A stretch of DNA of 64,000 bases from Photorhabdus laumondii subsp. laumondii. GTDB taxonomy: Bacteria > Pseudomonadota > Gammaproteobacteria > Enterobacterales > Enterobacteriaceae. The first letter of the stretch is position 1. Every line of letters begins with the position of its first letter. A model generated the notes under the pieces. The model was not told the DNA's origin, made no database searches, and worked only from the letters and a program-made list of their open reading frames with translations. Of this stretch, positions 11,229 through 29,041 are shown one piece after another. A program made the position numbers and the translations under genes. The DNA is taken from assembly GCF_003343245.1 (NCBI RefSeq), contig NZ_CP024901.1:3968001-4032000 (forward strand), given 5' to 3'.

Positions 11229-11355
11229 TATATCCGTCATCTTTCAAGTTGCCTCTTTGTTGGCTGCACTCTCTCACCCCGGTCACATAGTTCTCTATGC
11301 TCCCGAGGATTCGCTCCCTTGCCGTCGCGATGCATCTTGAAATCTATTGAGTATA
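11229..11355 (+). repeat. ERIC repeat (127 bp), copy 2
   Basis: A full-length copy starts TATATCCGTCATCTTTCAAG, with TATACCC altered to TATATCC, and ends GAGTATA. It marks the left boundary of the AT-rich glycosyltransferase island. Confidence 0.9.
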
Positions 11356-11424
11356 TTCATACTAACACTAAAACACCTGTAAAAAATAACTTTTTCAACA
11401 ATACCACATTAAGTAATAAGACTA

Positions 11425-12639
11425 TTAAGCAACATATGGAAATACTATTTCATATATATATTCATACAAATTAACTTCATCCAAGATGATAAACGCCTTG
11501 ATTGAATTACCAAACTCTAAATCAAAATCCCTTTTATCAACAATATTAATCACAATTTCAGCCGTACCGTTTTTTACGCCAAATATAGCCTCAACCTTCC
11601 CTTTTATTGCCCCATACTTGAGATAATCATAAGCATCCATTTTTAATTCTACGCTCTGTCCAATTTTAATCTTTCTAATGTATTTTTCACTAACAACTCC
11701 TTTTGCTATAAAGTGATTACCATCAGGATATATAGTAAAAACTAACTCGCCTTTTTTTACCTGCTTAGGCCTGATGCCATTAATATTATTAAACTCAACC
11801 TTACCATCAGCTTTTGCAATTCCTTCTATTCTCAACTTACCATTCTTTATATTCTCCATCCCTGTGTTTTTTACATTCAATTCTGAGACAAGAACGGAGA
11901 GTTCACCTCTTAACTGGTTAAGCTCCATATCTAACTCTTTATATTTGGTTGCTCCAATTATGTATCTACTCTGCTCATCATCTAAACTGTACTTTCTTTT
12001 CTCTAAGTCTAATATATCAGATTCAAGATTAATCAGGCCACGACGTGATGAGAACAATTCCATTTTATATTTAATAATATCTTTCTTAGATAAATAATTA
12101 TTATTCTGATTTAACAATTTATCTACAAAATTCATCTGTTCTCTGTAGCTTTGACTAAAAAAATCATAGTCATCTCTATGGTCTTTCAAAATAGAGTCTA
12201 TATTTTTTAACTCACTTTCATTTTTATTAAACTTAAAATCCTCATAATTTTTTTCAATCTTCATCCGCTCATAGACATTATCTATATACTTTTCCATCGC
12301 ATTAATTTTCGTATTATCTCGTTTTATATTTTGCAATAAAATAGATTCAGCCTCCTCTAAATCTGGATTAATCGCATTATAAATAGAATCTCCTTTTTTA
12401 ACCACATCACCATCACGAACATTATAATTTTTAATGTCTATATCCTTTTCTGCATAAAATAATACAGGCTCTGGTGCGGTTTTAATAAAAGCATTTTCTA
12501 AAACAACTCGCCTCTTTATAGTCACAACAAAAGATAAAGCAAAACATATAATCAGCAAAAAAACTGTTATACTTATAATTAATTTATATTCTTTATGCAG
12601 TTCTGACTTAACTTCATTATTAGAGTTTAATTTATTCAT
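11425..12639 (-). CDS. HlyD-family periplasmic adaptor (membrane fusion protein)
   Basis: This 404-aa protein has a short cytoplasmic N-terminus and one transmembrane helix at about residues 20-41. A first lipoyl-like strand (NYNVRDGDVVKKGDSIY), a long predicted coiled coil (about residues 90-260) and a second lipoyl/beta-barrel part (ADGKVEF, then KIGQSVELKMDAYDY) follow. This is the layout of type I secretion adaptors that join an inner-membrane ABC exporter to an outer-membrane channel. Its ATG overlaps the end of the ABC transporter gene by 8 bases, so the two are a coupled export unit. No TolC-like gene is nearby. Confidence 0.82.
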   Translation of the reverse strand: MNKLNSNNEVKSELHKEYKLIISITVFLLIICFALSFVVTIKRRVVLENAFIKTAPEPVLFYAEKDIDIKNYNVRDGDVVKKGDSIYNAINPDLEEAESILLQNIKRDNTKINAMEKYIDNVYERMKIEKNYEDFKFNKNESELKNIDSILKDHRDDYDFFSQSYREQMNFVDKLLNQNNNYLSKKDIIKYKMELFSSRRGLINLESDILDLEKRKYSLDDEQSRYIIGATKYKELDMELNQLRGELSVLVSELNVKNTGMENIKNGKLRIEGIAKADGKVEFNNINGIRPKQVKKGELVFTIYPDGNHFIAKGVVSEKYIRKIKIGQSVELKMDAYDYLKYGAIKGKVEAIFGVKNGTAEIVINIVDKRDFDLEFGNSIKAFIILDEVNLYEYIYEIVFPYVA

Positions 12640-13212
12640 TAAAAGCCTCTAGTTTGAAGAAATCATAGTCCTTTTCACTTTTCAACTCTAACACTTCATG
12701 ATTTTCACAATCGATAGTAAAATCATGAGCGACATAGAATATAATACAACCTTCTTTTTCTGAAATTAATTTACTTACGACTTTAGCATTTTCATTATCA
12801 ATTCCTCTAAATATTTCATCAAATATCAATACCGATTTATCTGACAGATAACCTCGTAAAAAGAGTAATACTTGTCTTTGTCCTTCAGAAAAAGGGTTAA
12901 CCTTATCACTAATAACGGTATCTAGTTTTTCAGGCAAGCTATCTATTGTCTGCCATAAATTTAATTTTTTAAGCATACTCTCAACTTTATTCCTATCAAC
13001 GTCTCTTCCTAATGTAATATTTTCAATAATACTTGTAGTAAAGAGTATATCTTGTGGGAAGTATGCAGAGCATTGATTTATATGAATTTCAGGCTTAATA
13101 GTTTTATCAGAAACATAAAAATTCACAGATCCATTTACAGGTGGAATCAAACCAATCAAAGTCTTACATAAAGTTGTCTTACCAATACCATTCTGTCCTA
13201 TTATTTTATATA

Positions 13213-14309
13213 TACCCAAGAAACTTCAAGATGCAGTTTTTAGCACCTGAAAATGGTCGTTAATTCTAGACATCAGCGAGTCCGCTATATCCGGTAGCGT
13301 TGTGGTGAAAAATTTGAAGACGTTGTCTCGAAATTCATGTTTATCCGCAAAATAACGGTTATTTCGAACCTGTTCATTCATGACCTTCCATAATCGCTCT
13401 ATTGGGTTTAAATTTGGGCTATAGGGAGGAAGGTAATGTAACTCAATATTGCTAACATAAGCCCACTCCTTAACAAGATGAGCTTTGTTGTAACCCGCCC
13501 CATCCACAATAAGATGAATTTTTTGATGATAGTCAGGATAAGACTTTCTTATTTCATTGAAAAAACAGCAAATGTTGTAGTCATTGATGGTTTGATATTC
13601 CTGGAACACCGTACGACCAATGGCATTCAGGTTGAGCGCGCCCAATATATTCAGGCGAGTCCGGCTTCCTGTTGTTTTTACTGTTTTTTTCTCGCCTTTT
13701 CGCATCCAGCCATAACCGAGTTTGGTGCCTTGAGTCGGGTGAACAGCATCAAGAAAAAGGATGGGTTCGTCTTTCGCTGTGACTTTAAGATTCTCATAAT
13801 ATTCAATAAATTGTCGCTGTTTTTCTGCGTCGAATTTATGAGGGACGCCACAAGGTTTTTTATAAGAAAAACCCTGACGGTGTAGCCATTTATTCATGCC
13901 GGGAATGCTAAAGGTAATATTCCAGAGCTGAGCAACATAGGCCACGATTTCATGGGTGTGATGGAAAAGATGTTGAGATAAGTGATTGATTAAAAAATCA
14001 GTTTGTTCTTGAGAAAGCAAACTATCAGACCCCCCATTATCAGATTTAAGTTTACCTTGATTAAGGTAATCGCTGATATGACGGTTAACGGTCATTTCAT
14101 GAAGACGCAGGGCCTGAGCGATCATCACTGAACTCCAGCCTTCAGAGGCCAGCAGGACCGCTTTGATGCGATCACACTCCCTCTTATCACGGCAGGTGTG
14201 ATGGAGATGTTCAAGTTCGGCTTTTTGTTCATCGGTAATGAATATTTTCATAGCGAGGATAATGATCTCCATTTCGGATAAAATCAAGCATCTTCAATGA
14301 TTACGGGTA
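13213..14309 (-). mobile_element. IS630-family insertion sequence (1097 bp) in the ABC exporter gene
   Basis: The ends are TACCCAAGAAACTTCAAGATGC on the left and, as reverse complement, TACCCGTAATCATTGAAGATGC on the right: imperfect 22-bp terminal repeats sharing TACCC and AAGATGC. A TA is duplicated at 13211-13212 and 14310-14311, the target preference of the IS630/Tc1 group. The element carries one transposase gene. Its ends closely match those of the ERIC repeats in this window. Confidence 0.88.
13226..14251 (-). CDS. IS630-family transposase
   Basis: This 341-aa DDE transposase begins MKIFITDEQKAELEHLHH with a helix-turn-helix region (SSVMIAQALRLHEMTVNRHI). The catalytic residues are in LFLDAVHP (D), LIVDGAGYN (D) and NLNPIERLWK (E), the IS630/Tc1-mariner pattern. 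The frame stays open up to 14287, and I chose the family-like start. The gene is intact, so it could supply transposase in trans to short elements with similar ends, such as the ERIC repeats. Confidence 0.9.
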   Translation of the reverse strand: MKIFITDEQKAELEHLHHTCRDKRECDRIKAVLLASEGWSSVMIAQALRLHEMTVNRHISDYLNQGKLKSDNGGSDSLLSQEQTDFLINHLSQHLFHHTHEIVAYVAQLWNITFSIPGMNKWLHRQGFSYKKPCGVPHKFDAEKQRQFIEYYENLKVTAKDEPILFLDAVHPTQGTKLGYGWMRKGEKKTVKTTGSRTRLNILGALNLNAIGRTVFQEYQTINDYNICCFFNEIRKSYPDYHQKIHLIVDGAGYNKAHLVKEWAYVSNIELHYLPPYSPNLNPIERLWKVMNEQVRNNRYFADKHEFRDNVFKFFTTTLPDIADSLMSRINDHFQVLKTAS

Positions 14310-15523
14310 TATCTTATTACTTTGAAAGGTAAAATCCGGAATTTTACAGACGATATTTCCATTAGTACCAATATGAAGATTCCTCACTGTAATTTCGTCT
14401 ACACTAACAATATTATCATCTAATTCAGTATTCAATAAACTCTCATCTACAACATTATTCCCCATGAATTCTTTATACCTTTCAAGAGTAATGCTTGATC
14501 TTTTCAACTCCATAAAAGAAACTAAAATTTGCATTGTATGTTTTAGAGACATTTCTGTAAAAGCAATTAATGTCAACATTATACCTAGTGAAAAACTACT
14601 ATATCTAATAATGCTAATAACCATGACACATCTAATAACAGTACCAATGATTGTGTTAACTGTTAGCGTTTTACTTTTCACACCAGCAACAAGTAATGCA
14701 ACATTTTTCTCCCTATTCAAAAAATCATTCATCCTGTCAACACATCTATTCAGAATCCTGTTTCGATAGTTATTGCCTCGTATCGTTTCCCTTCCTCCAA
14801 TAATATCATCCATAATTGAAAGAAAATTTGATTTTATTTTAAAACGCTGCTCTTCTAAAATAATCATTTTCTTGACAGACAAAAAATAGACAATCACCAG
14901 CATAATCATTCCTAAGATCAAAAAGCTGACAACTAGAGGACTAACATATAGCACTATGATTGATAATATTAAAATCGTAATAAGCTTAACAACAATATCT
15001 ATTAGCAGAGTCAAATAATACTTTTTAATATTTTGAGCATCATAAATCCTTTGAATCAATCCACCTTTATTATAATCATTCAATATAGATAATCTTGTAG
15101 TAATCAAAGCAAGTAAATATTTATCTAAATAATAATAGTCCAAATATTTTTCCAGTGATGCTCTAAAGCGAGCAGTCAAATAAGTTAGTATCATATTGAA
15201 TGATTCATATAATAGATAGGATATCATAAAGATAAATAAAAAACGCAAGTCACCTGATGGTATAACCGCGTCAATCAGATACTGCATAAAAAATGCAGCA
15301 AAAGAACTAATGACACTTAATAGTAAAGAGTATAGTAATAAAGATTTTATATAACCTGTCGCAAAGTTATCCTTCAATGCCACATCCATTTTCATGCTAA
15401 ATTCCTGGATAATATTAATATAATTTACAACAATGAAATAACCGTGGATTCAGCAACAAGTTAGTTCATTACCCAATTAGAAAACCTAATTAAAATACAT
15501 ATAGCACTATTTTGGAATATTAT

Positions 15524-16318
15524 TTAGTTATCAACCACATTCAGTATGTTCATAATGCCCTGACTCACAAAATTTTCATCAGAATTTGTTTCACCACCAA
15601 GAAGCATAATAACCTCTCTATAAAGAAAATCTATTTCCTTAATTCTTGTTTCTATATGATTAGGACTCATTGCCAGTGAGAAATGCTCAGCAAAACTTTC
15701 ATCAATATCTTTGAGCTGGCTAATCATTTTGCGAAAACCTTGCAGCCCCCAATGACGATGAAGTCTGATATAAGAATCTGCAATATTGAGCAAAAACTTA
15801 GAACATGCAAATTCGAAAAATCCAAGGTCATATTTCACTTGATGTACCTTCCGGTATAGGCTTTCAATTAGCAATGCACTTTTCCTTCTATTTTCTATAG
15901 AAAATGTTTCTACAATAGGTGACTCGACTATAGAATAGGTTTTTAGTTTCAATTCTCTTGCTATATTTTTATTATCAAAAATAATCTCTGAATCCAACAT
16001 ATGCTTTATTGTTGGTCCATGCTTATGAGATAAAAGTTTTACTAAAGATTTTTCTGCCATATACCGAAGTTCAAATTCTACTTCACGATAGACTACCTTC
16101 TTTCTAAATAAATCAATTTTACTTCCATGTATAATAAGCAAGTCAATATCACTGCTTCCATTTTTATATTTACCTGTAAAATATGATCCATATCCAAGAA
16201 TAGCTAAGACTTTTTCTTCTCTCTTTATTTTTTCTACAATTTCTTTTAAGCATTCTTTAATGTCGTCCATACTACCTCGCTTAGAATATCTGTCACGAAA
16301 AATATAAAAATCATTCAC
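15524..16318 (-). CDS. Nucleotidyltransferase-fold protein (Pol-beta superfamily)
   Basis: This 264-aa protein has the minimal nucleotidyltransferase signature GYGSYFTGKYKNGSSDIDLL near residues 42-61: the GS motif followed by two metal-binding aspartates. A helical C-terminal part follows, like antibiotic or sugar nucleotidyltransferases. The substrate cannot be told from sequence. It lies between the disrupted exporter and the disrupted GT2 gene, so it may modify the product of the island. Its stop codon is formed at a TA that abuts a degenerate IS630-type end (15505-15524). Confidence 0.7.
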   Translation of the reverse strand: MNDFYIFRDRYSKRGSMDDIKECLKEIVEKIKREEKVLAILGYGSYFTGKYKNGSSDIDLLIIHGSKIDLFRKKVVYREVEFELRYMAEKSLVKLLSHKHGPTIKHMLDSEIIFDNKNIARELKLKTYSIVESPIVETFSIENRRKSALLIESLYRKVHQVKYDLGFFEFACSKFLLNIADSYIRLHRHWGLQGFRKMISQLKDIDESFAEHFSLAMSPNHIETRIKEIDFLYREVIMLLGGETNSDENFVSQGIMNILNVVDN

Positions 16319-16852
16319 TGGAAACTACAGCATATTTCACATCAAAACATTTCAACTATTTTAACTCGATTTCATTCAGGTGAAATCGAACATCGTTGGG
16401 TTTGTTCATATACTCTGATAATGGTAAGTTACTCTTTATTGTATTTCGTAATTGATCTAGCTTCTTAATATAATTTAATCTCGTTTCTGATTGGAATCCA
16501 GTAATAGACGATGTGGTAAGGGAGCTTTCTCTTTCTATCTTTACATAGAGGGGACGGTTAATATTCCTGACCTTTACACAATGAATAGCCCTAAGTAAAA
16601 AATCATCATCAGCAGCAATTCTAGTTGTACCATCAAAACCACCAAGGGTACGAAATATACTAAATCTAATTAACTGAGTAGGTTGAAAACTCAGATACTT
16701 CTTACCAAGTTGATGTGCAATATAAGGGATTCTATAAAACTTCTTAATGCGAAATGAGTTAACCGTATGGAAATTTTGGTAGAAATCTATATATGAAGTA
16801 CCTAATATATCAATATGACTATTTTTGTTCATCAGATTATACAGGCAATCTA

Positions 16853-18001
16853 AATAACTTTTCAAAATAGTAGAACACTTGGAGGGAACTCAGTCCAATT
16901 TTTGCAATCTGATCAATTGTAGATAATCCCAAACCACTAAACGGACTGAGTTATGCCTATCATAGCACCTATACCCCGCAATGAACGACGCCAGATGAAA
17001 AAAATTATCCAGAACACCCGAGATAAAGATTATGCTCGCAGGCTCATGGCCATATTGATGCTGCATCGAGGCGAGTCTGTCTCTCTGGTCGCCAAAACCC
17101 TTTGCGCCAGTCGTTCTTCTGTCTATCGCTGGATAAACTGGTTGACTTTATATGGTCTGGAAGGACTCAAAAGCCTGCCTGTGGGCAGACCCGCTGTCTG
17201 GAATTTAATCCCGCTTTATCCTTTACTGTCTTTTTTATTGCAATATTCTCCCCAGCAATTGGGCTGCCTGCGTTCTCGCTGGAGTCTTGAGTTTTTTATA
17301 ATTAAAATCAATGAATTATTAAACATAAAATTATCCATCAGTACCTTCTATCGTTACTTACATAAAATGGGTATCGTGTGGCGAAGGGCAGCCCCGACGC
17401 TTAAATTACCCGATCCCGAGTACCATGAAAAAATGGCGAAAATTACCGAGGCATTGTCAACGTGTTCAGAAAAACATCCCGTTTTTTATGAAGATGAAGT
17501 CGACATCGAGCTGAATCCAAAAATCGGGGCTGACTGGTATTTAAAAGGGCAACAGAAACGTATAGTGACACCAGGAAAAAACCAAAAACATTATTTTGCA
17601 GGTTGCCTGAATGTTCAAACGGGAAAAGTGACTTATGCTGACGGGTTAAATAAGAATTCTCAGTTATTTATCAATGTATTGGAAGAACTTGAACGCCAGT
17701 ATTGTCATGCTGAAACCCTCACTTTGATTTTGGATAATTACAGTATCCATAAAAGCCGACGGGTCAGAGATTGGCTGGCTTGTCATCCTAAATTTAATCT
17801 GTTGTTTTTACCTGTTTATTCACCCTGGCTGAATAAAATTGAGCGTCTGTGGCAATCCTTACATGAAACGGTGACACGAAATCATGGCTGTCAGTATATG
17901 TGGCAATTGCTTGAGAAAGTGAAAACGTTTTTAAATTCATGTCCCTACAGGAATAGCAGAGAATAAAAAGAGTGAGTGTATTATAATTATGAAAAGTTAT
18001 T
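16853..18001 (+). mobile_element. Second IS630-family element (1149 bp) in the GT2 gene
   Basis: The left end begins AATAACTTTTCAAAATAG. The right end, as reverse complement, begins AATAACTTTTCATAAT; the first 12 bases are identical and similarity continues for about 30. TA is duplicated at 16851-16852 and 18002-18003. The left part also holds an inverted repeat AACTCAGTCC/GGACTGAGTT just before the transposase. Both ends match those of the 187-bp element at 26641-26827. Confidence 0.87.
16953..17966 (+). CDS. IS630-family transposase (second type)
   Basis: This 337-aa protein begins MPIIAPIPRNERRQMKKIIQ, with a winged-helix N-terminus (SVSLVAKTLCASRSSVYRWI). The DDE residues lie in VFYEDEVDIEL (D), LILDNYSIHKS (D) and NKIERLWQ (E). 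It is only distantly similar to the transposase at 13226-14251. The last residues (FLNSCPYRNSRE) look unlike the usual C-terminus and a neighbouring frame stays open to the element end, so a late frameshift is possible. The DDE core is complete. Confidence 0.88.
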   Translation: MPIIAPIPRNERRQMKKIIQNTRDKDYARRLMAILMLHRGESVSLVAKTLCASRSSVYRWINWLTLYGLEGLKSLPVGRPAVWNLIPLYPLLSFLLQYSPQQLGCLRSRWSLEFFIIKINELLNIKLSISTFYRYLHKMGIVWRRAAPTLKLPDPEYHEKMAKITEALSTCSEKHPVFYEDEVDIELNPKIGADWYLKGQQKRIVTPGKNQKHYFAGCLNVQTGKVTYADGLNKNSQLFINVLEELERQYCHAETLTLILDNYSIHKSRRVRDWLACHPKFNLLFLPVYSPWLNKIERLWQSLHETVTRNHGCQYMWQLLEKVKTFLNSCPYRNSRE

Positions 18002-18341
18002 TAGTCTCATTGGTACAGAATAGTCATCTGCATCATGAAAGGTTATAAATTCAGTATCAATTCTATTGATGATATTATTTTTCAATCGATAAGTCCCGAC
18101 ATTAACATCACTCCTAAACAACCTGATATTTAAATTAGTTTTACTTGCTAAATATTCTAAAACATGTTGGAGCTGTATATAGTTGTCTTCTGATGAATGA
18201 TCATCAGCAACTAAAATCTGCACATCACTCAAACAAGTTCTCATTATAGACTCAATAGCACTAACAATAAGTATAGGCTGATTATAATGGGGGATTAGTA
18301 CAGAAACTCTACTCATGTGAGCTACTCATTCAAAATAATTA

Positions 18342-19232
18342 TCAATTATTCAAATTACAATGAACACCTTCAACTACAACTCCAAATTGGCGAAATATCT
18401 TTATTAAATAATGTATGTACAGGTTTGGATGCCAAAAGAAAAAAACAAGCCTCACAATAGTAAATGGAATAATGAGAGCAGTAATCCATACCTTACTCAG
18501 GTCATTATTATTAAATATCCTATAATTTGTTCTTCCTACTCTAAAACTTCTTTTTAATACCCAAAAAATATTTGCACGATTTTGGTCATAGAATTCATAG
18601 GCCAGTGCATCACGGCAATAGAAACAGCTGATCCCAATTTGCTTTGCTCTATGGAAAAAATCCGTATCCTCTCCTCCTGTAACACCAAAATTCAAGTCAA
18701 ACAGCTGCTCCTTCATCGATTCATACACTCGGCGTACAATAAATACATTACAAGTGCTAACATTTATATCTTTAGAATCTGATACTAATAAGTCTCGGTA
18801 ATAAAATGAAACTTTTTCCATCCATTTTCTTTTTTTATCCAAAAAAATAGGATAAGTGTTACCTTGTATCACATCAGAATTTGTCTGTATCTGGCATTCA
18901 ATAAGTGCATCTAACCACCGAGAACTAACAATCTCATCATCATCAATCATAGCAACTGCATCGCACTTATATGTTTCAAAGGCCAAAGTTAACAGCATAT
19001 TTCTAACTAATGAGATATTTTTATCTTCAACAAGAATGACATCAATATGGAAATTAAAATCATCTTTGATTTCATTGATCATGTTAAAAGACTCTTTCTG
19101 AGAAGAATCGTTATCTGCCACAATGGCAGTATAGTTATTTGATGTCTCTAATTTTTCAATGGATTTCAATAAACGTAATAATGATGAACTACGTTTATAA
19201 GTAGGAATAAGAATTGCTACTTGCCGTAACAT
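18342..19232 (-). CDS. Family 2 glycosyltransferase with C-terminal membrane segment
   Basis: This 296-aa protein begins VAILIPTYKRSSSLLRLLKS. It has the GT-A nucleotide-sugar motif VAMIDDDEIVS near residue 95 and the acceptor-side motif GVTGGEDTDFFHRA. A hydrophobic stretch near residues 250-268 (ALIIPFTIVRLVFFF) suggests membrane anchoring. It lies in a same-strand run of glycosyltransferases. The sugar donor and acceptor cannot be inferred. Confidence 0.85.
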   Translation of the reverse strand: MLRQVAILIPTYKRSSSLLRLLKSIEKLETSNNYTAIVADNDSSQKESFNMINEIKDDFNFHIDVILVEDKNISLVRNMLLTLAFETYKCDAVAMIDDDEIVSSRWLDALIECQIQTNSDVIQGNTYPIFLDKKRKWMEKVSFYYRDLLVSDSKDINVSTCNVFIVRRVYESMKEQLFDLNFGVTGGEDTDFFHRAKQIGISCFYCRDALAYEFYDQNRANIFWVLKRSFRVGRTNYRIFNNNDLSKVWITALIIPFTIVRLVFFFWHPNLYIHYLIKIFRQFGVVVEGVHCNLNN

Positions 19233-19980: not shown

Positions 19981-21195
19981 TCATCCTTCAGAAAATTCCT
20001 CATTAAGTATTATGTTAGCTAAATGTTTACTTTGAATATTAATATTGAATTCATTCATTATTTTTTGATGTGCATTCTCCCTCATAATATTTTTATCTTT
20101 TTTACCCAACTCGTCTATATATGATATTTTTTCTGATAAAGCTACAATATCTCCTTCATTGACAAGAAATCCATTAACATTATTTTCAATTAACTCGGTA
20201 ATCCCGCTATGGTAGGTAGACAAAACTATCTTTTTCATAGCCATTGCCTCCATTAATACCACTGGTATCCCTTCCATGTCACCAGAGTTAGATGTTTTGG
20301 ATGGAAGTATTAAAACATCTGCGTCTTTCATAAAATTTAAGACTATGTGATGGGGTTGAAAACCATGCATTTTTATATGTTCATTCAAATTAAGTTTTAA
20401 TATTAATTCATAACAATAATCATTGAGCTCCCCATCGCCAACAATGTCTAAAGTAAATGACACTTCACTGCTTATTCGTGCTAGAGATAACAATAAATCA
20501 GGCAATCCTTTTTTTTCTGTCAAACGGCCGACAAAAATTATCTTCATTTTTTCTTTATTAGATTCATTTGGATATAAACATGAAAGAGCATCAATATCGA
20601 TCCCCAGATGTAGCACCTCAACATTGGTAGGATGACATCCTAGATTGATGATTCTATTACGCATATATTCACAAACTGAAAAAATTTTATTTGCTTGCTC
20701 AAATAAAATTCCGTAATGATTTCCCAGATCATTAAGACTCTTTTCTTTAGTCATTTCATATGCATGTAATACACTATATAGTGCACTCTTAATATATCCA
20801 TATTTTTTCAATTGTGCCGCCATGATACTAGCCATACCAAAATGGCTTATAACGATATCATTAGGTTTTATTTGTGACGGATTGGATAGAAATTTAAAAA
20901 GCAAGCGCTTACGGTAACAATTTCGTTTAAATAAACTCATTCGAGAAAAGAAATAACCAGAGGTTATAGAAAAATAAATAAACTTAAATATTGCATATAT
21001 AGGATGAATGTTTTTTATATCTTCTAGACAAACATAGGGGATTGTAGAATCATTAGCACAGATTGTATCACTAGATTTAGAAACAGATACAACTCTTACA
21101 TTAAATCCTTCTTTCTTCAAACTGATAATCTGTTGATGTATAAAAGTTTGTGTTAGGACTGGATATTCTTCAAGAAAAAAAACTATATCACGCAC
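19981..21195 (-). CDS. Family 4 glycosyltransferase
   Basis: This GT-B retaining transferase has an N-terminal acceptor domain (FFLEEYPVLTQTFIHQQI) and a C-terminal nucleotide-sugar domain with IIFVGRLTEKKGLPDLL and the E-x7-E motif GDMEGIPVVLMEAMAMKK. From the GTG at 21195 it is 404 aa, with AAGG seven bases upstream. A longer frame from an ATG at 21225 would start inside the ERIC repeat and has no ribosome-binding site, so I prefer the GTG. It heads a run of glycosyltransferase genes. Confidence 0.88.
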   Translation of the reverse strand: MRDIVFFLEEYPVLTQTFIHQQIISLKKEGFNVRVVSVSKSSDTICANDSTIPYVCLEDIKNIHPIYAIFKFIYFSITSGYFFSRMSLFKRNCYRKRLLFKFLSNPSQIKPNDIVISHFGMASIMAAQLKKYGYIKSALYSVLHAYEMTKEKSLNDLGNHYGILFEQANKIFSVCEYMRNRIINLGCHPTNVEVLHLGIDIDALSCLYPNESNKEKMKIIFVGRLTEKKGLPDLLLSLARISSEVSFTLDIVGDGELNDYCYELILKLNLNEHIKMHGFQPHHIVLNFMKDADVLILPSKTSNSGDMEGIPVVLMEAMAMKKIVLSTYHSGITELIENNVNGFLVNEGDIVALSEKISYIDELGKKDKNIMRENAHQKIMNEFNINIQSKHLANIILNEEFSEG

Positions 21196-21213
21196 AGAAG
21201 ATCCTTTTCTTTT

Positions 21214-21340
21214 TATACCCGTCATCTTTCAAGTTGCCTCTTTGTTAGTTGCACTCGCTCACCCCGGTCACAGAGTTATCTATGCTCCCGGGGATTCGCT
21301 CCCTTGCCGCCGCAATACACATTGAAATCCATTAGGTATA
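21214..21340 (+). repeat. ERIC repeat (127 bp), copy 3
   Basis: A full-length copy runs from TATACCCGTCATCTTTCAAG to ATTAGGTATA. It lies immediately upstream of the GT4 gene and contributes an in-frame ATG to it. Confidence 0.92.
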
Positions 21341-21463: not shown

Positions 21464-22078
21464 TCAAATAGCAACATTATCAAAATAAGATTTATTTTTC
21501 CTATAGAAAAACAAACTCATTGTAAGCCCAATACAAATAGAAAGAACATGACCAGGCTTAGGATAATGAGCATAAATAAAATCTAAAGCGATTGCCGGCA
21601 GCATGGAAAAAACAACAGCAAACTTTAATATACTAGAGGTATGCTCTTTGACAAAAACCAACAGTAATGCAAAGGAAGATACGCCCAAAACAGCTTGTGA
21701 TGCTCCTGTACCAATATTCCAAGGGTAACTAACAAAGTTAGTGCTATAAAGAGTTCCCAAAGCACCAGAAATAAACCATAAAACTAATAAAAATTTAGAT
21801 CCAAGATGTTTTTCCAATAAAATTCCCAATATTGAAAGTGATAGCACATTGTAGACCATATGCAGTTGTTTAACATGTATGAACTGGGAAACCAGAAGTC
21901 GCCAATACTCAAATTCATATAATCTATTTGGTGTTAACCCTCCATATTTCTCTAGTTCTATAATGCTTATTTTACCGATAAAGCTATCTGTTAATGAATA
22001 TGAAACAAATGTGGAATAAACAATTGTCACACATACTATAAATACTGTTGTTATAGGCGCTTTTTCAATTTTGAACAT
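21464..22078 (-). CDS. Rhomboid-family intramembrane serine protease
   Basis: This 204-aa polytopic protein shows the rhomboid hallmarks. YWRLLVSQFIHVKQLHMVYN contains the conserved His/Asn (H73, N77), GTGASQAVLG carries the catalytic Ser127 (GxSx) and HVLSICIGL carries the catalytic His177. It would cleave transmembrane segments within the inner membrane. It is co-directional with the glycosyltransferases on both sides, an unusual setting for a rhomboid. Its substrate is unknown; a role in processing an exported product or an enzyme of the island is speculation. Confidence 0.85.
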   Translation of the reverse strand: MFKIEKAPITTVFIVCVTIVYSTFVSYSLTDSFIGKISIIELEKYGGLTPNRLYEFEYWRLLVSQFIHVKQLHMVYNVLSLSILGILLEKHLGSKFLLVLWFISGALGTLYSTNFVSYPWNIGTGASQAVLGVSSFALLLVFVKEHTSSILKFAVVFSMLPAIALDFIYAHYPKPGHVLSICIGLTMSLFFYRKNKSYFDNVAI

Positions 22079-22099: not shown

Positions 22100-23209
22100 T
22101 TACATGACATCACAAATTATATCAGGTAAATCTTTAAGTGTAATATCTATATCATCAATTTCACTTAATTCTATGTTACGCTTAAAGTTAGTTACAATCT
22201 CAGGATTATCCAACCATTTTTTTATTATACCAGGCCCATTAGATTGATTTTCAAAACAAAAACCAAATTTTCTTTTGTTTGTCAACTCCACTATCCATCT
22301 TTCCATTGGTAACCCTGAGAAATGTATTAGAACTGGTAAATTGAATCTAATTGATTCCAATACTGTGTTTGGACCAGATTTGGAGTATAGAAATGATCTG
22401 CTGTTTGTTGAAGCCTCTAGTATCAGTTTTAGATAATCCTTATTAGCTAATGTATTATAAATGCATGCTCTATCTGCATACTTCCTATTTAAATCTATGC
22501 ATTCATCATACAATTTCTTATTCGAAATAATAACCATGAATATTTTAGGTTTCGACGGATGTTCGAAAGAAGTTTTTAATACATCAAAATAACCTTCTTC
22601 ACATCCATTGCAGAGAATTAAAATAGAAGGAATGTCCTGCTGATCGATTTGATAGTTTGAAACTGGCTTAAATAATGGAACAGTCTCTAGTCTATGAAAT
22701 TTTTCAACCATATCAGAATTTGGGTAATAATTTGTCGTTCTAATCGTCAAATCACTACTAAAATGTTGATGTATTTTAATATCTAACAAACCAGGATTAG
22801 TTATGAAGTTCACTGTTTTGAAATCAAAATAGAATTTTTCTTTGAATGCATGGACTATTTTTGCGATAACACCTTTCGTCGATATAATTAACGATGGAAA
22901 ATCATTTTCAATGACACTCGATAATGATTCATTTAATACTTGCTCATTATTGAAATTACTAATCCACAAACCAATATCATCTATCAACTCATCATATAGC
23001 TTCAATTTAATGTGAGGATCATAGTAACTTGCAGAAATCTCTTGCATTCTTAATCCAAACTTGCTGAACACAGGTACTAATTCATCAAAACAGATTAATT
23101 CTGTAGAAAAAAATGCTTTACTAGCTAGTTCTGATTCAATTTTTTTTGCTGCTTCATAATTTCCCATTCTCCCCCAAGTTCTCATGCAAATAATCAATAT
23201 CTTCTTCAT
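22100..23209 (-). CDS. GT-B fold glycosyltransferase (GT28/MGDG-synthase-like)
   Basis: This 369-aa protein begins KKILIICMRTWGRMGNYEAA. The C-terminal part SGPNTVLESIRFNLPVLIHF, followed by SGLPMERW, matches the donor-binding signature of GT28-like transferases such as MurG and monogalactosyldiacylglycerol synthase (G-x-T-x-x-E, then P and a final E). A lipid-linked acceptor would fit the isoprenoid genes next to it. It is 21 bp upstream of the rhomboid gene on the same strand. Confidence 0.65.
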   Translation of the reverse strand: MKKILIICMRTWGRMGNYEAAKKIESELASKAFFSTELICFDELVPVFSKFGLRMQEISASYYDPHIKLKLYDELIDDIGLWISNFNNEQVLNESLSSVIENDFPSLIISTKGVIAKIVHAFKEKFYFDFKTVNFITNPGLLDIKIHQHFSSDLTIRTTNYYPNSDMVEKFHRLETVPLFKPVSNYQIDQQDIPSILILCNGCEEGYFDVLKTSFEHPSKPKIFMVIISNKKLYDECIDLNRKYADRACIYNTLANKDYLKLILEASTNSRSFLYSKSGPNTVLESIRFNLPVLIHFSGLPMERWIVELTNKRKFGFCFENQSNGPGIIKKWLDNPEIVTNFKRNIELSEIDDIDITLKDLPDIICDVM

Positions 23210-23302
23210 TTAAGTAATATCCCCACAGCAAACTGTTAATATAAACTCAAAATCTCATATAAATTCACAATCTTCACATGATTGAGTTTTAATATATTTT
23301 CT

Positions 23303-23592: not shown

Positions 23593-23697
23593 GTATTACC
23601 CATTATTGCAAGAATGTAGATAATTTATCTGATTAACTTAGTTCATTTCTATACTAATAAAATCAGAATATCTACATGGCATTGATATGCCATATCA

Positions 23698-25077
23698 CTA
23701 ATACTCCATAAAAAAATCATAATTATTTACAATTCCTTTAGGATCCAAGTGTTTCTTGAGTTCTAAAATTTTCATATAATCATCTCCATATATTTTTATT
23801 TTATCTTCATATTTCATTTCATGCCATCCCGCAAGATAAGGCCGACCTTCATTTAAAATACACTCTTCTAATATTTGACTATGCAGTAACTTTAATTTTT
23901 CATATTCTTTGCTTTCGTTTCTAGGAAACGTAAAGTACACCCCAACCCCGAATACAATTCCACTCATTTTTTTCGATATCGGCTCAAAAGGAAAGAACTT
24001 ACTTAAACTAGGACTTTTCTTTAAAATTATAAGAAGCCTACCTTTATTACTTATAAAAACGTCATTGTTAATTACTTTATTTAATAGGAAATTAGCAAAA
24101 GCCATAATATTATTCTGATCAACACAATAATCTCCCCAAAGATTAACATAGTCTCTATTCCAGAGATCATGCCTATAGGCACCAAATGTTCTTCCTCTAT
24201 AATCTCTTACTGAATGGTATTTGTAGCCAATACACCCTGTCACTTGACATTCTAATACCTTATTAACAATATTAATCTGATCAGAATTATTGCTGAGAAC
24301 CATATTAACATAGTATTTTCTTCGGTATAATTGACATGTGACAGCTTCAATATTCAGATTGGAATATTCAGATATCAATATCAGAAAACTCAGTAAATGA
24401 AGAATTCCATCAAACTCTATCACATAAAGTATGTTCTCTACTCTTAATGGAATTGCTTCAAAAGTCACATCTTCAATAATACCAAGTATTCCTAATGATG
24501 CGAGTCCAAAATTATAAAGTTCGGAATTTGAATCTTCTGAACATCTATGCCTTTTTCCATCAGGTGTTATTAGCGTATACGATTGAATACATGATGCCTG
24601 ACTGCCATATAGATATGAATCTTCTCCATATCCACCAACAGAAAGTGTTCCTCCAACAGTCGTATCAGGATGCCTAGTCAAGATAGGAAATGATAAGCCA
24701 TTTTTTCTCAAAAAACACTCAACAGACAACCATGTTTCAAAAGCTGAAACTTTAAACTTATATTCATCTATTTTTTCAAATACCGGATTTTCGACTGATA
24801 CTACTAATACAATTCCCTTTGAAAGCGATTGTGTACCAAAAGAATGCCCAACACCACGTATATTTATTGGTATCTCATTTATATTACAATAGTGAATTAT
24901 ATCTATTATTGAATCTGTATTTTTCACACAGACAACAGCAAGCGGTGGTATTGAATACATTCCACCAAAGTTTGTACAAAATGTTGATAAATATTCTTCC
25001 ATCAATATGACATAAACTCCATGCAATTGATTAAGATCATTATAAATTGTCTTTTTTTCATGCCAAGTAGTATTCAT
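23698..25077 (-). CDS. FAD-linked oxidoreductase (VAO/PCMH family)
   Basis: This 459-aa protein has a PCMH-type FAD domain: INIRGVGHSFGTQSLSKG, where the His is the usual site of covalent FAD attachment, and TTVGGTLSVGGYGEDSYLYG. The C-terminal HLDPKGIVNNYDFF is the usual end motif. It resembles alditol/lactone oxidases and cytokinin-dehydrogenase-like enzymes. A TTG start at 25116 is possible, but I chose the ATG at 25077. It is next to idi and the GGGPS-like gene, so it may oxidise a prenyl or glycerol part of the product; that is inference. Confidence 0.8.
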   Translation of the reverse strand: MNTTWHEKKTIYNDLNQLHGVYVILMEEYLSTFCTNFGGMYSIPPLAVVCVKNTDSIIDIIHYCNINEIPINIRGVGHSFGTQSLSKGIVLVVSVENPVFEKIDEYKFKVSAFETWLSVECFLRKNGLSFPILTRHPDTTVGGTLSVGGYGEDSYLYGSQASCIQSYTLITPDGKRHRCSEDSNSELYNFGLASLGILGIIEDVTFEAIPLRVENILYVIEFDGILHLLSFLILISEYSNLNIEAVTCQLYRRKYYVNMVLSNNSDQINIVNKVLECQVTGCIGYKYHSVRDYRGRTFGAYRHDLWNRDYVNLWGDYCVDQNNIMAFANFLLNKVINNDVFISNKGRLLIILKKSPSLSKFFPFEPISKKMSGIVFGVGVYFTFPRNESKEYEKLKLLHSQILEECILNEGRPYLAGWHEMKYEDKIKIYGDDYMKILELKKHLDPKGIVNNYDFFMEY

Positions 25078-25199
25078 TATTCCAGAACCTGATTTTATTC
25101 CATAGTTAGAAACCAAGGTATACTTTTATAAAAACCTATCAAAATAGAGGATATTTCGTATCATGCAGACTTATAGTATATTCTTGATTAAATGCCTTA

Positions 25200-25304
25200 T
25201 ATACCCGACGGCAAGGAAGCGAATTCCCGGGAGCATAGCGAACTATGTGACCGGGGTGAACGAGTGCAGCCAACAAAGAAGCAACTTGAAAGATGACGGG
25301 TATA
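25200..25304 (-). repeat. ERIC repeat, internally deleted (105 bp), copy 4
   Basis: TATACCC is followed directly by GACGGCAAGGAAGCGAATTC. Compared with full copies this one lacks about 22 bases next to one end, while the other end (GATGACGGGTATA) is intact. It lies between the FAD oxidase and idi. Confidence 0.85.
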
Positions 25305-25312
25305 CATGCTAA

Positions 25313-25843
25313 TTAGCACAATTTATCAAAGTGGTTCTGTAATATATCTGCCCACTCTTTCTTGAACCAAGGCGTACAAAACTCTTCATTATTATGAATA
25401 TATTCTTGGACATCTTTAATATTAATAAAAAATCCTGCTGATACTTCTTTTGGGTTTTCCGTTGGTGGTGTATCAGTAAAAACAACAAAGACATGACATA
25501 ATTCATGTTCATATCCTACATCTTTATATTTTTCTTTATATTGGAACTTATATAAAAATTTTGGTTCTTCATTTATTACAATACCGAGTTCTTCTTCCGC
25601 ACGTCTCATCACAGCATGAGAAATTTCTTCATCCGGTCTCGGGTGACTGCAATATGAGTTAGACCAATATCCAGGCCAGAGTAATTTAGACTGTGCTCTC
25701 TGCTGAATGTATACCTCATTTTTTGAATTAATAATAAAGCAGGAAAAGGCACGGTGAAGATGATCACCGTTTAAATGAGCGTCTATCTTATTAATGCATC
25801 CAACTCTGTTATCATTCTCATCGACTAAAACTACATTTTCCAT
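25313..25843 (-). CDS. idi: Isopentenyl-diphosphate delta-isomerase, type 1
   Basis: This 176-aa Nudix-fold enzyme interconverts isopentenyl and dimethylallyl diphosphate, supplying the primer for prenyl chains. The catalytic Cys65 is in WSNSYCSHPRP, the Nudix-like helix is HAVMRRAEEELGI, and the metal-binding HLNGDHLHRAF lies near residue 23. Length matches E. coli Idi. It sits 15 bp downstream of the GGGPS-like gene on the same strand, strongly suggesting a joint role in making an isoprenoid. Confidence 0.93.
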   Translation of the reverse strand: MENVVLVDENDNRVGCINKIDAHLNGDHLHRAFSCFIINSKNEVYIQQRAQSKLLWPGYWSNSYCSHPRPDEEISHAVMRRAEEELGIVINEEPKFLYKFQYKEKYKDVGYEHELCHVFVVFTDTPPTENPKEVSAGFFINIKDVQEYIHNNEEFCTPWFKKEWADILQNHFDKLC

Positions 25844-25858
25844 ATTAGAGACTCCTCA

Positions 25859-26602
25859 TTAATATATTCTTTCTTTATTTAATATGTTTATAGCATTGTT
25901 ATTCCAATTGACTTCTTCAAATGTAGTTCCAATTGAAATAAAATCAGCACCAGAATATAACAGGTTATTTACCTGCTCAGTGTTTGATATTCCTCCACTA
26001 ACAAACAACAGTGTATTATCTCCAACAATAAACTTTACAAAACTGCATATTTCATTAGAAATAACGCTGTTTCTTGAGTAAAGGTAAAAAACCTTCAATA
26101 AATTGAAATCTATACCTTCCAATGCTCTAGCAATACTTTCTGTTGAGTGATCTACAGTCTTTGAATAAACAAATTTTTGAGACTTTTTATCATTACCTAG
26201 AACAAGAGCAGCAGAACTGATTAAACAGTTGTCACCATACTTTTCAATACTCTGCTTGATGGACTCTCTCTCTAATGATAAAGAGCTATAGTATTCCACA
26301 TTGGAATTTATCACTGATGTGGCAAAAAATGCATCTGCGTGAGGTGATGAAGGAAATCCGTTTGGTTTCTGAGGAGGAAAATGCGTTATGATCGGGATGG
26401 TTTTAATCTTTGATGCGGCAGCTATAAAGGGAGACACTTTCATCTCAAAGTTTTCACAATCCGTACTAGCTATTATACAAAAAGGAGCATATTTTTGAAA
26501 AGTTAATAATCTATTTATATTTATTTCATAATTAAACTTAAATGGATCGAGGATAGGGATTATTGACTTTCTACATGAAGACATATATTTACAAATATCC
26601 AT
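25859..26602 (-). CDS. Geranylgeranylglyceryl-phosphate synthase-like (GGGPS/PcrB) prenyltransferase
   Basis: This 247-aa TIM-barrel protein shows IPILDPFKF near residue 19 (compare the family's LIDPDK), IPIITHFPPQKPNGFPSSPH, and ADAFFATSVINSNVEYY (compare the family's ADALxxxSLLNS). The C-terminal phosphate-binding pair VSGGISNTEQ and SGADFISIGTTFE is also present. GGGPS/PcrB enzymes join a prenyl diphosphate to sn-glycerol-1-phosphate, the first ether-lipid step in archaea and in a few bacteria. Chain length and substrate cannot be read here. With idi next door it probably makes a prenylglycerol lipid or a related compound. Confidence 0.78.
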   Translation of the reverse strand: MDICKYMSSCRKSIIPILDPFKFNYEININRLLTFQKYAPFCIIASTDCENFEMKVSPFIAAASKIKTIPIITHFPPQKPNGFPSSPHADAFFATSVINSNVEYYSSLSLERESIKQSIEKYGDNCLISSAALVLGNDKKSQKFVYSKTVDHSTESIARALEGIDFNLLKVFYLYSRNSVISNEICSFVKFIVGDNTLLFVSGGISNTEQVNNLLYSGADFISIGTTFEEVNWNNNAINILNKERIY

Positions 26603-26640
26603 AGTAAACCCTATTTTGACGTTATTAATTTAATGACCTA

Positions 26641-26827
26641 AATAGCTTTTCATAATACCGATACAGTTGGTCTATTTGATTAATATTCAAGCAGTGCAAG
26701 TCTGGTGCCTGATAGGCTGCAACAATTACGCCTATTGAGATAGGCTCTAACTCATCGCTCTGCTATGCATACAACTCCTGCTACACAAGGTGTTATACGA
26801 AGTGGAGCCCTATTTTGGAAAGTTATT
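26641..26827. mobile_element. 187-bp MITE derived from the second IS630-family element
   Basis: The left end AATAGCTTTTCATAAT matches the right end of the 16853-18001 element at 15 of 16 positions. The right end, as reverse complement, begins AATAACTTTCCAAAATAG and matches the element's left end at 17 of 18. TA is duplicated at 26639-26640 and 26828-26829. There is no coding capacity, so this is a non-autonomous derivative that could be mobilised by the transposase at 16953-17966. Confidence 0.85.
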
Positions 26828-26848
26828 TAGTTTGACAAAACAATTTTA

Positions 26849-27988
26849 TTAATCAAATAAAGATTTTTTTTCCTTCAAACTTTCAGTTTTTTCCCAAGAA
26901 TATGCAGACCATGCTATTTCTCTTAACGGATTTCCTGAAAATCTTCTAAAAAACAACTCAATCAATATGATTACATGCCATATTAAGAATATAAATTTAA
27001 GTATACTTTTTATAATCTTATCTTTAATAGGTATATTGATAAACATGGCTGGGAACAACCCATTGAACTGAACTTCTTTTAAATAATACAAGCACTTATC
27101 CAATGGATAATCAGCACAATAAACTACAGTGCTAATAATGGATCTACGTATACGGAAATATGTATCTTTGACATTCCCTCCAACATAATGTTGACATATA
27201 GACTCTTCCACGATCCTCATATTATTTTGAGGATTTTCTAATTTCATGTCTAATAATTCAAAAAAGAAAAAACCATCATCACAAATATATCTGGCAGGAA
27301 TCAAGTTTTTTATTGATGAGACACCTACCATCATACAACAGCCATGTGGATATTTTGTTTTCTTTGTAGACATTTTATTTTTGGCAAAATTCAAAAATTT
27401 TGAAGTAGGATATTTTTTCGGTGTCGGGCATTTCAATGCACCAGAACTCCCTATAAACCCTCTGCGACGAAGATCTTCATACAATTGTAAAAATGCATCA
27501 TCAGATAGAATAACATCATCATCCATCCATCCAACTGCTGAACAGTTTATCCTTCTTGCTAAAAGAACAGTTTGATTTATTGAATATGCTTTGCTCCTGA
27601 TATCTGTAAGAAACAATATCAACTTGTCGTAAACCTCATTTTCATTCAAAAGCTTTTGAACACTATCAATAATATCTTCTCTATGACTATAGTTAGATTG
27701 AATACTAACCATTAATACAGAATTAAATTTGATGCATTGTTCTATTCCTCTTTGAATTGCTTCTAAGATCTCAGATTTATCACATCGTCCCCATAGTGTC
27801 GGCAACAATATGATACTATCTGCATTCTTTATATAAGATAATTGTGCACATTCCTTCAATTCTACTTCATAACAACGCTCATCACTAAAATGTAAATATA
27901 TATCTTTATGTTTCGAATAATTCCAGTCATTCCCTTTTACATAACATTTGGATACTTGCTTCTGCATTATCTTAAATATATTCATCAT
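26849..27988 (-). CDS. Glycosyltransferase family 2-like protein
   Basis: From the ATG at 27988, with GGGG five bases upstream, the protein is 379 aa. CSAVGWMDDDVILSDDAF carries a DDD metal motif. Acceptor-side YICDDGFFFFELLD and a basic, hydrophobic C-terminus (KFIFLIWHVIILIELFFRR) suggest a membrane-associated GT-A enzyme. An upstream extension to 28018 overlaps the radical SAM gene and is unlikely. The substrate is unknown. Confidence 0.68.
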   Translation of the reverse strand: MMNIFKIMQKQVSKCYVKGNDWNYSKHKDIYLHFSDERCYEVELKECAQLSYIKNADSIILLPTLWGRCDKSEILEAIQRGIEQCIKFNSVLMVSIQSNYSHREDIIDSVQKLLNENEVYDKLILFLTDIRSKAYSINQTVLLARRINCSAVGWMDDDVILSDDAFLQLYEDLRRRGFIGSSGALKCPTPKKYPTSKFLNFAKNKMSTKKTKYPHGCCMMVGVSSIKNLIPARYICDDGFFFFELLDMKLENPQNNMRIVEESICQHYVGGNVKDTYFRIRRSIISTVVYCADYPLDKCLYYLKEVQFNGLFPAMFINIPIKDKIIKSILKFIFLIWHVIILIELFFRRFSGNPLREIAWSAYSWEKTESLKEKKSLFD

Positions 27989-27989
27989 C

Positions 27990-28838
27990 TTATACCCCAA
28001 CAAAATCACAATATTCACATATTCCGATTCTATTTCTATTCTTTAATTGTTCTCTAATTTCATTTAAATTATTTGAATTCCATATCTCAAGAATGCTTTG
28101 GTGGTTAAGATCTCCTATAATGGCCTCTTCCATCCAATCCTGACAGCACAAAACAACAGTACCACTGAATGTTATTGTGAGTTCAGTAAATGGTTTTACA
28201 CATGAATTATTTAGAAATACCTTCTTTTTTTCACCAATATTTCCAGCACGATTTGTCAAGCTTTCAGAATTATCTCGTGTTACAAATATTAAATTATCAG
28301 TAATATTCTCCTCCCATTTTTTTATTTTCTTCAATACTATTTTATCATCAGTATAGTCATTCACTATTAACTCAGCATATTGACCAAGCTCCTTAGCAAT
28401 TGTTTCATTTAATAAGGAACCATTTGTCTGAATAATTATTTTTGCATTTGTTTCGTTTTTTATTTTTTGAGCCCAATCTATAATTCTCTTATCCATCAAT
28501 GGCTCATTTCTAAAAAACAAACTGATATAACCATTAAAGTCTTTTAACTGCTCCACTATTTTATCAAATAGTTCTTGCTGCATTTTCCCTTGTTTCATTT
28601 TGACTTTATTTGTGGGACAAAATGAGCAGGAATAGTTACAGCCACTTCTTGTTTCTATTTGTATAATCTTAGGGAAATCTGGCACATCTAATTTACTACT
28701 TATTAGCTTAGATAAAAATGACTCTATGAATTTTGATTTGATATACTTCCTATTTATACCACTAATTGTGTTTAGAACACCTTTTCTTTTTATTCGACTA
28801 AAAACATAGCGGATTTTTTCTTTATTTATAAGATTCAT
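27990..28838 (-). CDS. Radical SAM protein with SPASM-type C-terminus
   Basis: This 282-aa protein has the CxxxCxxC cluster C67-C71-C74 (in SGCNYSCSFCPTNK), which binds the 4Fe-4S centre that cleaves SAM. C213, C231, C232, C274 and C277 form a SPASM-like auxiliary cluster region. SPASM proteins modify peptides, carbohydrates or cofactors. It is the first gene of the island in the direction of transcription. I found no convincing precursor-peptide gene beside it, so a role on a sugar or lipid is as likely as a peptide one. Confidence 0.85.
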   Translation of the reverse strand: MNLINKEKIRYVFSRIKRKGVLNTISGINRKYIKSKFIESFLSKLISSKLDVPDFPKIIQIETRSGCNYSCSFCPTNKVKMKQGKMQQELFDKIVEQLKDFNGYISLFFRNEPLMDKRIIDWAQKIKNETNAKIIIQTNGSLLNETIAKELGQYAELIVNDYTDDKIVLKKIKKWEENITDNLIFVTRDNSESLTNRAGNIGEKKKVFLNNSCVKPFTELTITFSGTVVLCCQDWMEEAIIGDLNHQSILEIWNSNNLNEIREQLKNRNRIGICEYCDFVGV

Positions 28839-28914
28839 CTCAGTAAAATATCCTCTTTATAAATTTCGACTCAATATATTAAGTTAATAAGATAAATTAT
28901 CTGCATTCTTGTTA

Positions 28915-29041
28915 TATACCCGTCATCTTTCAAGTTGCTTCTTTGTTGGCTGCACTCACTCACCCCGGTCACATAGTTCTCTATGCTCCCGGGGATTCGC
29001 TCCCTTGCCGCCGCGATGCATCTTGAAATCCATAGGGTATA
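28915..29041 (+). repeat. ERIC repeat (127 bp), copy 5
   Basis: A full-length copy runs from TATACCCGTCATCTTTCAAG to CATAGGGTATA, upstream of the radical SAM gene at the right boundary of the island. Confidence 0.93.

Follow-up and report, generated by a model that had tools for sequence, protein, structure and literature searches.

A gene island in Photorhabdus laumondii with a MoeO5-type prenyltransferase, probably related to moenomycin biosynthesis and interrupted by IS630-family insertions

What is made, or was once made, by a chromosomal island of the insect-pathogenic Photorhabdus laumondii subsp. laumondii in which prenyltransferase, glycosyltransferase and export genes stand side by side? 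The stretch analysed here (the window) comprises 64,000 nucleotides of contig NZ_CP024901.1 (RefSeq assembly GCF_003343245.1, positions 3,968,001 to 4,032,000, forward strand), and the host genome measures 5.69 Mb in one contig. An earlier note had listed the island genes as lying on one strand, and the open reading frame (ORF) list of the window agrees: all are encoded by the minus strand, from 11425 to 28838. Read from 28838 downwards, they encode a radical SAM/SPASM protein, a 389-aa protein, a PcrB-family protein, a type 1 isopentenyl-diphosphate isomerase, an FAD-linked oxidase, a 369-aa protein, a rhomboid protein, a GT4 glycosyltransferase, a 234-aa protein, two GT2 glycosyltransferases, a nucleotidyltransferase, an ABC exporter and a HlyD protein. 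Twenty window proteins were scanned with Pfam, at a Pfam/NCBIfam match threshold of E 0.01, and family matches were obtained for radical SAM/SPASM, PcrB, NUDIX/isopentenyl-diphosphate isomerase, FAD_binding_4, rhomboid, one GT4 gene, two GT2 genes, nucleotidyltransferase, ABC and HlyD. The island coincides with a G+C trough (~31–36%, against ~43–46% further out). We consider it likely that the island represents a Gram-negative phosphoglycolipid pathway related to moenomycin biosynthesis, broken in the window copy, and that it probably makes, or once made, a moenomycin-like glycolipid.

The prenyltransferase and its partner glycosyltransferases

The proposed first committed enzyme, a MoeO5-type prenyltransferase, is encoded at 25859..26602 (minus strand). 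Its best PDB match is MoeO5 (3vk5; phmmer, 90.9 bits, E 9.1e-25), and tblastn relates it to the MoeO5 of Streptomyces clavuligerus at 3.6e-21. The best GGGPS in the same PDB search reached 22 bits (E 1e-3), which places MoeO5 ahead by ~21 orders of magnitude in E. A profile free of actinomycete sequences, built solely from the window protein together with homologues from Photorhabdus, Vibrio and Brenneria, gave a similar result (MoeO5 at E 2.1e-28, best GGGPS at 6.5e-4); inclusion of S. clavuligerus MoeO5 raised the MoeO5 score to 2.8e-71, a value biased toward MoeO5 and not used as evidence. The protein passes the broad Pfam PcrB cut-off (42.5 vs 23.9 bits) and misses the curated NCBIfam GGGPS cut-offs (TIGR01768, 47.1/113.25 bits; TIGR01769, 29.8/161.55; NF003198, 47.9/247). 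A YLYSRN motif is common to the window protein, its Vibrio and Brenneria homologues and MoeO5 3vk5, with YLYSR in S. clavuligerus MoeO5; the three GGGPS chains with alignments shown (6nke, 4jej and 5nez) carry Y(L/F)EAGSG at this place, a stretch that is not present in the window protein. By these sequence comparisons the protein belongs to the MoeO5 branch and not to GGGPS. The characterised MoeO5 uses 3-phosphoglycerate and farnesyl diphosphate (PMC9385802). Of the glycosylated prenylglycerol lipid proposed in the earlier note, a glycosylated lipid of isoprenoid–glycerol type is retained as the best guess, whereas the archaeal-type chemistry (glycerol-1-phosphate and geranylgeranyl diphosphate) is given up for an enzyme of the MoeO5 branch.

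A moeO5 homologue of P. luminescens, Plu3366, has been reported from an “obscure gene cluster” without known product, distantly related to the moenomycin cluster (PMC13096315, 2026). Residues Gly204 and Asn207 of Plu3366 fall at identical numbers in the window protein, which is apparently Plu3366 itself or its ortholog. Within the literature searched, as far as the sources were accessible, PMC13096315 is the only one to mention both Photorhabdus and plu3366, and the main texts of PMC9177418 and PMC4971723 are without the searched terms. The view that no described cluster has this gene combination consequently needs qualification: the product of the Plu3366 cluster is without description in the accessible parts of PMC13096315, but the cluster itself is already in print there as a distant moenomycin relative. 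A similarity network in the same article groups the Photorhabdus and Vibrio MoeO5 homologues apart from the actinomycete ones (PMC13096315).

What is new here is that, judged by homology, two genes beyond Plu3366 are also relatives of moenomycin-cluster genes. The comparison was made with the moenomycin locus of S. clavuligerus ATCC 27064 (L034). Neither protein has a Pfam or NCBIfam match at the above threshold, and both are recognisable only through this homology. The first, a MoeGT1-like glycosyltransferase of 369 aa (22100..23209, minus strand), matches the L034 glycosyltransferase in moeGT1 position (tblastn 3e-29), and its structural model predicts a MurG-like GT-B fold with two Rossmann domains. 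A profile that included the L034 gene and an ENA homologue retrieved a processive diacylglycerol glucosyltransferase from the PDB at 1.6e-7, while a single-sequence search returned two repeat-protein matches (E 1.2e-4 and 0.56) that were read as spurious. The MoeGT1 assignment follows from the gene order in L034, where the presumed moeGT1 lies just upstream of an Asn_synthase-type gene and behind another Asn_synthase-type gene and an epimerase gene, taken together with the description of moeGT1 as located upstream of moeH5 and overlapping it (PMC8778134). The second protein, a 389-aa glycosyltransferase with a DDD motif (26849..28018, minus strand), is related to two paralogous glycosyltransferases of L034 (tblastn E 1.7e-41 and 1e-19; hhalign probabilities 99.8 and 98.9). 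We take these paralogues to be MoeGT4 and MoeGT5. A profile built in the same way as for the 369-aa protein found nothing convincing in the PDB (best E 0.79), and the predicted structure (mean pLDDT 50) is too weak for use. Unlike these two proteins, the island GT4 and the intact GT2 have no strong match to the glycosyltransferases of the S. clavuligerus locus. The MoeO5 homologue is linked to the MoeGT1-like transferase in the window, in P. bodei and in P. asymbiotica.

Insertions, lesions and distribution

Beyond the earlier note, two IS630-family transposase genes were found, one interrupting the ABC transporter gene and the other a GT2 gene. The first insertion (16853..17998; transposase gene 16953-17966, plus strand, Pfam DDE_3 8e-26) separates the N-terminal part of the GT2 glycosyltransferase (17987..18316, minus strand, Pfam GT2 9e-13) from a C-terminal part that has no Pfam match of its own (16356..16865, minus strand); in P. 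asymbiotica and P. bodei the gene is a single 269-aa ORF. The second (13214..14307; transposase gene 13226-14287, minus strand, Pfam DDE_3 3e-38) divides the exporter gene into an N-terminal membrane part (14301..15395, minus strand, Pfam ABC_membrane 1.4e-8) and a C-terminal ATPase part (12632..13219, minus strand, Pfam ABC_tran 6.6e-18), and P. asymbiotica has a single 554-aa ORF instead. Neither insertion is present at that place in P. asymbiotica or P. bodei. Because both the exporter and one glycosyltransferase are split, the window copy is unlikely to function in full, which suggests one possible reason why a product may have gone unseen in strains with this copy.

The other copies carry lesions of their own. 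In P. bodei, the homologues of the nucleotidyltransferase and of the ABC protein contain extra pieces, and those of the isomerase and the FAD oxidase are separated by an IS630-type gene. P. asymbiotica and P. heterorhabditis SF41 share a change of reading frame in a run of A within the MoeGT1-like gene, the only clear lesion seen in the P. asymbiotica copy; this change may be genuine, may stem from a sequencing error, or may be overcome by slippage. The protein database lists a MoeGT1-like homologue of full length (369 aa) under a P. heterorhabditis entry. A frame change at roughly one position of the MoeGT1-like gene recurs in three Photorhabdus genomes (L015 ~1505-1511, L005 ~13755-13761, L054 ~4416-4420), with an A-rich run at the change in both genomes whose DNA was aligned. 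The common position suggests shared decay, phase variation or slippage.

The island occupies one chromosomal place, from srmB to ank/ung, in some Photorhabdus. A MoeO5-like gene was found in four of 12 Photorhabdus genomes, and nearly the whole gene set in three of these (the window, P. bodei and P. asymbiotica), P. thracensis holding pieces only. Both P. bodei and P. asymbiotica keep the genes linked and in the same order, so that the linkage anticipated from the window holds in relatives. Among the eight genomes without the MoeO5-like gene, one (G151) holds island remnants and one (G138) a different insert of ~11.6 kb, and the remaining six have no island gene at the srmB–ank site (tblastn E 1e-5). 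P. heterorhabditis SF41, outside the set of 12, carries the initial part of the cluster, which runs to a contig end. The G138 insert (L053, ~3444-15049) lies at the same srmB–ank site, and by eye its ORFs suggest a biosynthetic cluster of the sugar or aminotransferase kind. This place may be a hotspot at which biosynthetic islands insert.

Synonymous distances to P. asymbiotica are 0.03–0.20 for the island gene pieces against 0.65–0.89 for srmB, ung and trmN. Further flanking genes gave 0.44 (lipase-like), 0.24 (ank), 0.22 (grpE) and 0.11 (10349-10909), the contrast being clear for four of the seven flanking genes; relative to P. bodei it is weaker (island 0.01–0.11, flanks 0.03–0.22). These values fit an island that has spread among species while keeping to one site, perhaps through recombination in the flanks. 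The ratio of nonsynonymous to synonymous change (dN/dS) is below 1 in all 16 island gene pieces against both species, with a maximum of 0.77 in a 106-codon piece, so codon changes in the island genes are constrained.

Protein searches with the MoeO5-like, 369-aa and 389-aa queries returned three, four and three clusters. Homologues of the three proteins occur in Vibrio spartinae at 85, 73 and 82% identity and in Brenneria tiliae at 64, 59 and 63%; the remaining clusters are two from Photorhabdus, one that is 98% identical to the window and presumably also Photorhabdus, and one ENA protein at 25%. The longest listed contig has the same size for all three V. spartinae homologues and for two of the three B. 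tiliae homologues (the third lists none). As this search reaches only relatives that share short exact words, and did not return actinomycete MoeO5, it does not imply absence elsewhere. In wider genome groups beyond Photorhabdus, MoeO5-like searches gave only weak partial matches of 17–26 bits (1/149, 8/392, 3/369 and 0/77 genomes), which were not counted as relatives. The accessible part of a table in PMC13208338 contains a “phosphoglycolipid” region in Xenorhabdus budapestensis XH-4.

The most serious alternative is that the island in Photorhabdus is no more than a relic, which was inserted, moved from strain to strain and is now decaying without a current product. Remnants only in two of the 12 genomes, the IS630 insertions in the window copy, the MoeGT1-like frame difference that P. 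asymbiotica shares with P. heterorhabditis SF41, and the extra nucleotidyltransferase and ABC pieces in P. bodei all agree with it. Conversely, dN/dS below 1 throughout, the retention of core genes in V. spartinae and B. tiliae, and the full-length homologue under the P. heterorhabditis entry argue against it, and we rate a relic as rather unlikely. On this reading the genes would be silent on present chemistry, and a relic would be compatible with a moenomycin-related pathway as an account of what the island makes or made.

Remaining genes and repeats of the island

The gene at 27990..28838 (minus strand) encodes a radical SAM protein with a SPASM/twitch-type C-terminal cluster domain (Pfam SPASM 8e-15, Radical_SAM 1e-11). 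Its best solved relative is BtrN, the butirosin radical SAM dehydrogenase (4m7t, E 1.8e-22), and the cysteines of both cluster regions align, including the CX3CX2C motif and the auxiliary-cluster cysteines, which we presume to be cluster ligands. A reading of the radical SAM/SPASM, ABC/HlyD and rhomboid genes as a pathway for ribosomally synthesised and post-translationally modified peptides was set aside, the radical SAM protein being closest to BtrN; precursor peptide genes were not sought systematically. The type 1 isopentenyl-diphosphate isomerase (25313..25843, minus strand) passes both curated cut-offs (NF002995, 161 bits against 127; TIGR02150, 140 against 105.8). The FAD-linked oxidase (23698..25116, minus strand; Pfam FAD_binding_4 2e-26, TIGR01678 73 bits, below the cut-off of 397) is assigned by these and PDB matches to the lactone oxidase / cytokinin dehydrogenase / DprE1 superfamily. 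It is followed by a rhomboid-family intramembrane protease (21464..22078, minus strand, Pfam Rhomboid 7.5e-17), beyond the MoeGT1-like gene.

The earlier note had counted six glycosyltransferases. Three have a Pfam glycosyltransferase domain, namely a WcaL-like GT4 enzyme (19981..21225, minus strand; Glycos_transf_1 4e-36, TIGR04005 210 bits, below the cut-off of 538), a GT2 enzyme (18342..19232, minus strand, Glycos_transf_2 2e-13) and the N-terminal piece of the interrupted GT2 gene, and two more are identified by moenomycin-locus homology. The sixth, a 234-aa protein with a DGDS motif (19270..19974, minus strand), is without Pfam or NCBIfam match and may be a glycosyltransferase, judged from its sequence. 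The set is completed by a nucleotidyltransferase of the Pol-beta superfamily (15524..16318, minus strand; Pfam Polbeta 3e-7, NTP_transf_2 1.6e-6), for which a PDB search returned only MHC chains at E ~0.02, read as chance, and by a HlyD-family membrane fusion protein (11425..12639, minus strand, Pfam HlyD_3 1.5e-10).

A ~120 bp interspersed repeat has two direct copies (11231-11347 and 28917-29037) at the end points of the island as first delimited (11229/29041). Seven copies of ~97–121 bp, 88–96% alike, are present in the window, the other five at 8633-8753, 21216-21332, 25206-25302, 31538-31658 and 36049-36169; we take the repeat to be ERIC-like from its appearance. Neither P. asymbiotica nor P. 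bodei has the copy at 28917 in its aligned stretch. The 389-aa gene is separated from the MoeO5-like one by a segment of 186 bp (26642-26827) that occurs once in the window and is missing in the aligned stretches of P. asymbiotica, P. heterorhabditis and P. thracensis. Next to the island, an ankyrin-repeat gene adjoins a gene with a weak Pfam lipase-3 match (29538-31157); the pair is retained beside the site in 11 of the 12 Photorhabdus genomes, P. thracensis having lipase-like pieces only.

The proposed pathway and its known relatives

What the DNA itself shows is homology, linkage of the genes in Photorhabdus and the breaks; from this we infer a scheme in which every substrate, the order of steps, the product and its antibacterial action are conditional. 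The isomerase would balance isopentenyl and dimethylallyl diphosphate, and a housekeeping synthase would supply the prenyl diphosphate, probably farnesyl diphosphate. The MoeO5-type enzyme would then join the prenyl group by an ether link to 3-phosphoglycerate or a similar phospho-acid. A first sugar would be added by the MoeGT1-like MurG-fold enzyme and the next by the second moe-type transferase, before three or four further transferases (the two GT2 enzymes, GT4 and perhaps the 234-aa protein) lengthen the glycan or add branches to it. Oxidation of sugar alcohols could fall to the BtrN-like radical SAM enzyme and the FAD oxidase, and the ABC/HlyD pair would export the product. Its likeliest activity, speculatively, would be inhibition of competitors' peptidoglycan glycosyltransferases, the enzymes directly inhibited by moenomycins (PMC13096315). 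The fuller proposal is tentative, and we hold it somewhat less probable than its negation: phosphoglycolipid antibiotics would have a new branch in gammaproteobacteria (Photorhabdus, V. spartinae and B. tiliae), with a glycoside of prenyl-phosphoglycerate as product. The core sugars of this glycoside would be moenomycin-like, its tailoring enzymes would be a BtrN-type radical SAM dehydrogenase and an FAD oxidase, and it would leave the cell by ABC/HlyD and act on the target just named.

Several observations weigh against a moenomycin-related pathway. Transcription of plu3366 in a moeO5-deleted Streptomyces did not restore moenomycin, the cause being left open (PMC13096315), and the phosphate-contacting Asn230 of MoeO5 corresponds to Gly204 in the window protein, although TchO5, reported in a similar residue situation, does complement a moeO5 mutant (PMC13096315). 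None of the island proteins matches the presumed MoeN5, B12 radical-SAM protein, Asn_synthase-type or epimerase genes of L034, a comparison confined to the island for all but MoeN5. The presumed MoeN5, identified by its position adjoining moeO5, has no match in the whole window genome at E 0.001 in a search without positive control. As called, the presumed moeGT1 of L034 overlaps the preceding gene and ends 34 bases short of the next, unlike the moeGT1/moeH5 overlap. The likeness of the split GT2 to the L034 GT2 gene (tblastn 1.7e-16 and 9.5e-11) could reflect no more than a general resemblance among GT2 enzymes and is given little weight, and the rhomboid and nucleotidyltransferase are without a place in the scheme. 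Finally, none of the Photorhabdus copies examined is clearly intact over its whole length, a state also compatible with a dying pathway of any kind. A lipid formed without MoeN5 may stay short; as C15 moenomycins have drastically reduced activity (PMC13096315), activity or target may differ.

An improbable alternative is a surface glycan or glycolipid (capsule, lipopolysaccharide decoration or glycosylated lipid anchor) in place of a secreted antibiotic, the MoeO5-like step making the anchor only. Several glycosyltransferases, the nucleotidyltransferase, the rhomboid, the relationship of the island GT4 to the colanic-acid protein WcaL and the lack of an evident resistance gene would suit it, whereas the moe-type core, the ABC/HlyD pair within the cluster, and the absence of a polysaccharide-system polymerase, ligase or flippase among the Pfam matches of the 20 proteins speak against it. 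Least probable is an archaeal-type lipid, in which glycerol-1-phosphate receives an ether-linked prenyl chain from the PcrB-like enzyme and is then glycosylated by the transferases: the passed Pfam PcrB cut-off and the GGGPS chains as next-best PDB relatives are outweighed by the distance to the NCBIfam GGGPS models (47 vs 113 bits; 30 vs 162), the lead of MoeO5 in E, YLYSRN in place of the GGGPS motif and the moenomycin-like partner transferases.

The moenomycin producers named in the accessible parts of PMC13096315 are actinomycetes. If the moenomycin-related reading is true, a related Gram-negative pathway with other tailoring genes would be a source of new scaffolds and enzymes; with two further moenomycin-type steps named, the “obscure” cluster becomes a testable pathway, for which V. 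spartinae and B. tiliae offer alternative sources.

Among known systems, BtrN is the best solved relative of the radical SAM protein, although no aminocyclitol pathway is seen in the island. With GGGPS/PcrB, the archaeal and Bacillus prenylglycerol-phosphate synthases, the prenyltransferase has the Pfam family in common, yet it stands on a distinct branch. The moenomycin cluster of S. clavuligerus and the island have in common the MoeO5-type prenyltransferase, the MoeGT1-like GT-B enzyme, a second moe-type transferase, a GT2 (perhaps generic) and similarity of the ABC ATPase, whereas the isomerase, BtrN-like radical SAM protein, FAD oxidase, rhomboid, nucleotidyltransferase, extra glycosyltransferases and ABC plus HlyD pair set the island apart. 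Because the island lacks genes for a B12 radical-SAM protein, amidotransferases and an epimerase, and MoeN5 was not found in the genome search without positive control, it is classed as a relative of the moenomycin cluster and not as a member. The “obscure” cluster of Plu3366 is apparently the same locus or its ortholog; PMC13096315, in its accessible parts, treats the prenyltransferase, and the glycosyltransferase homology, the insertion breaks and the island site are added by the present analysis.

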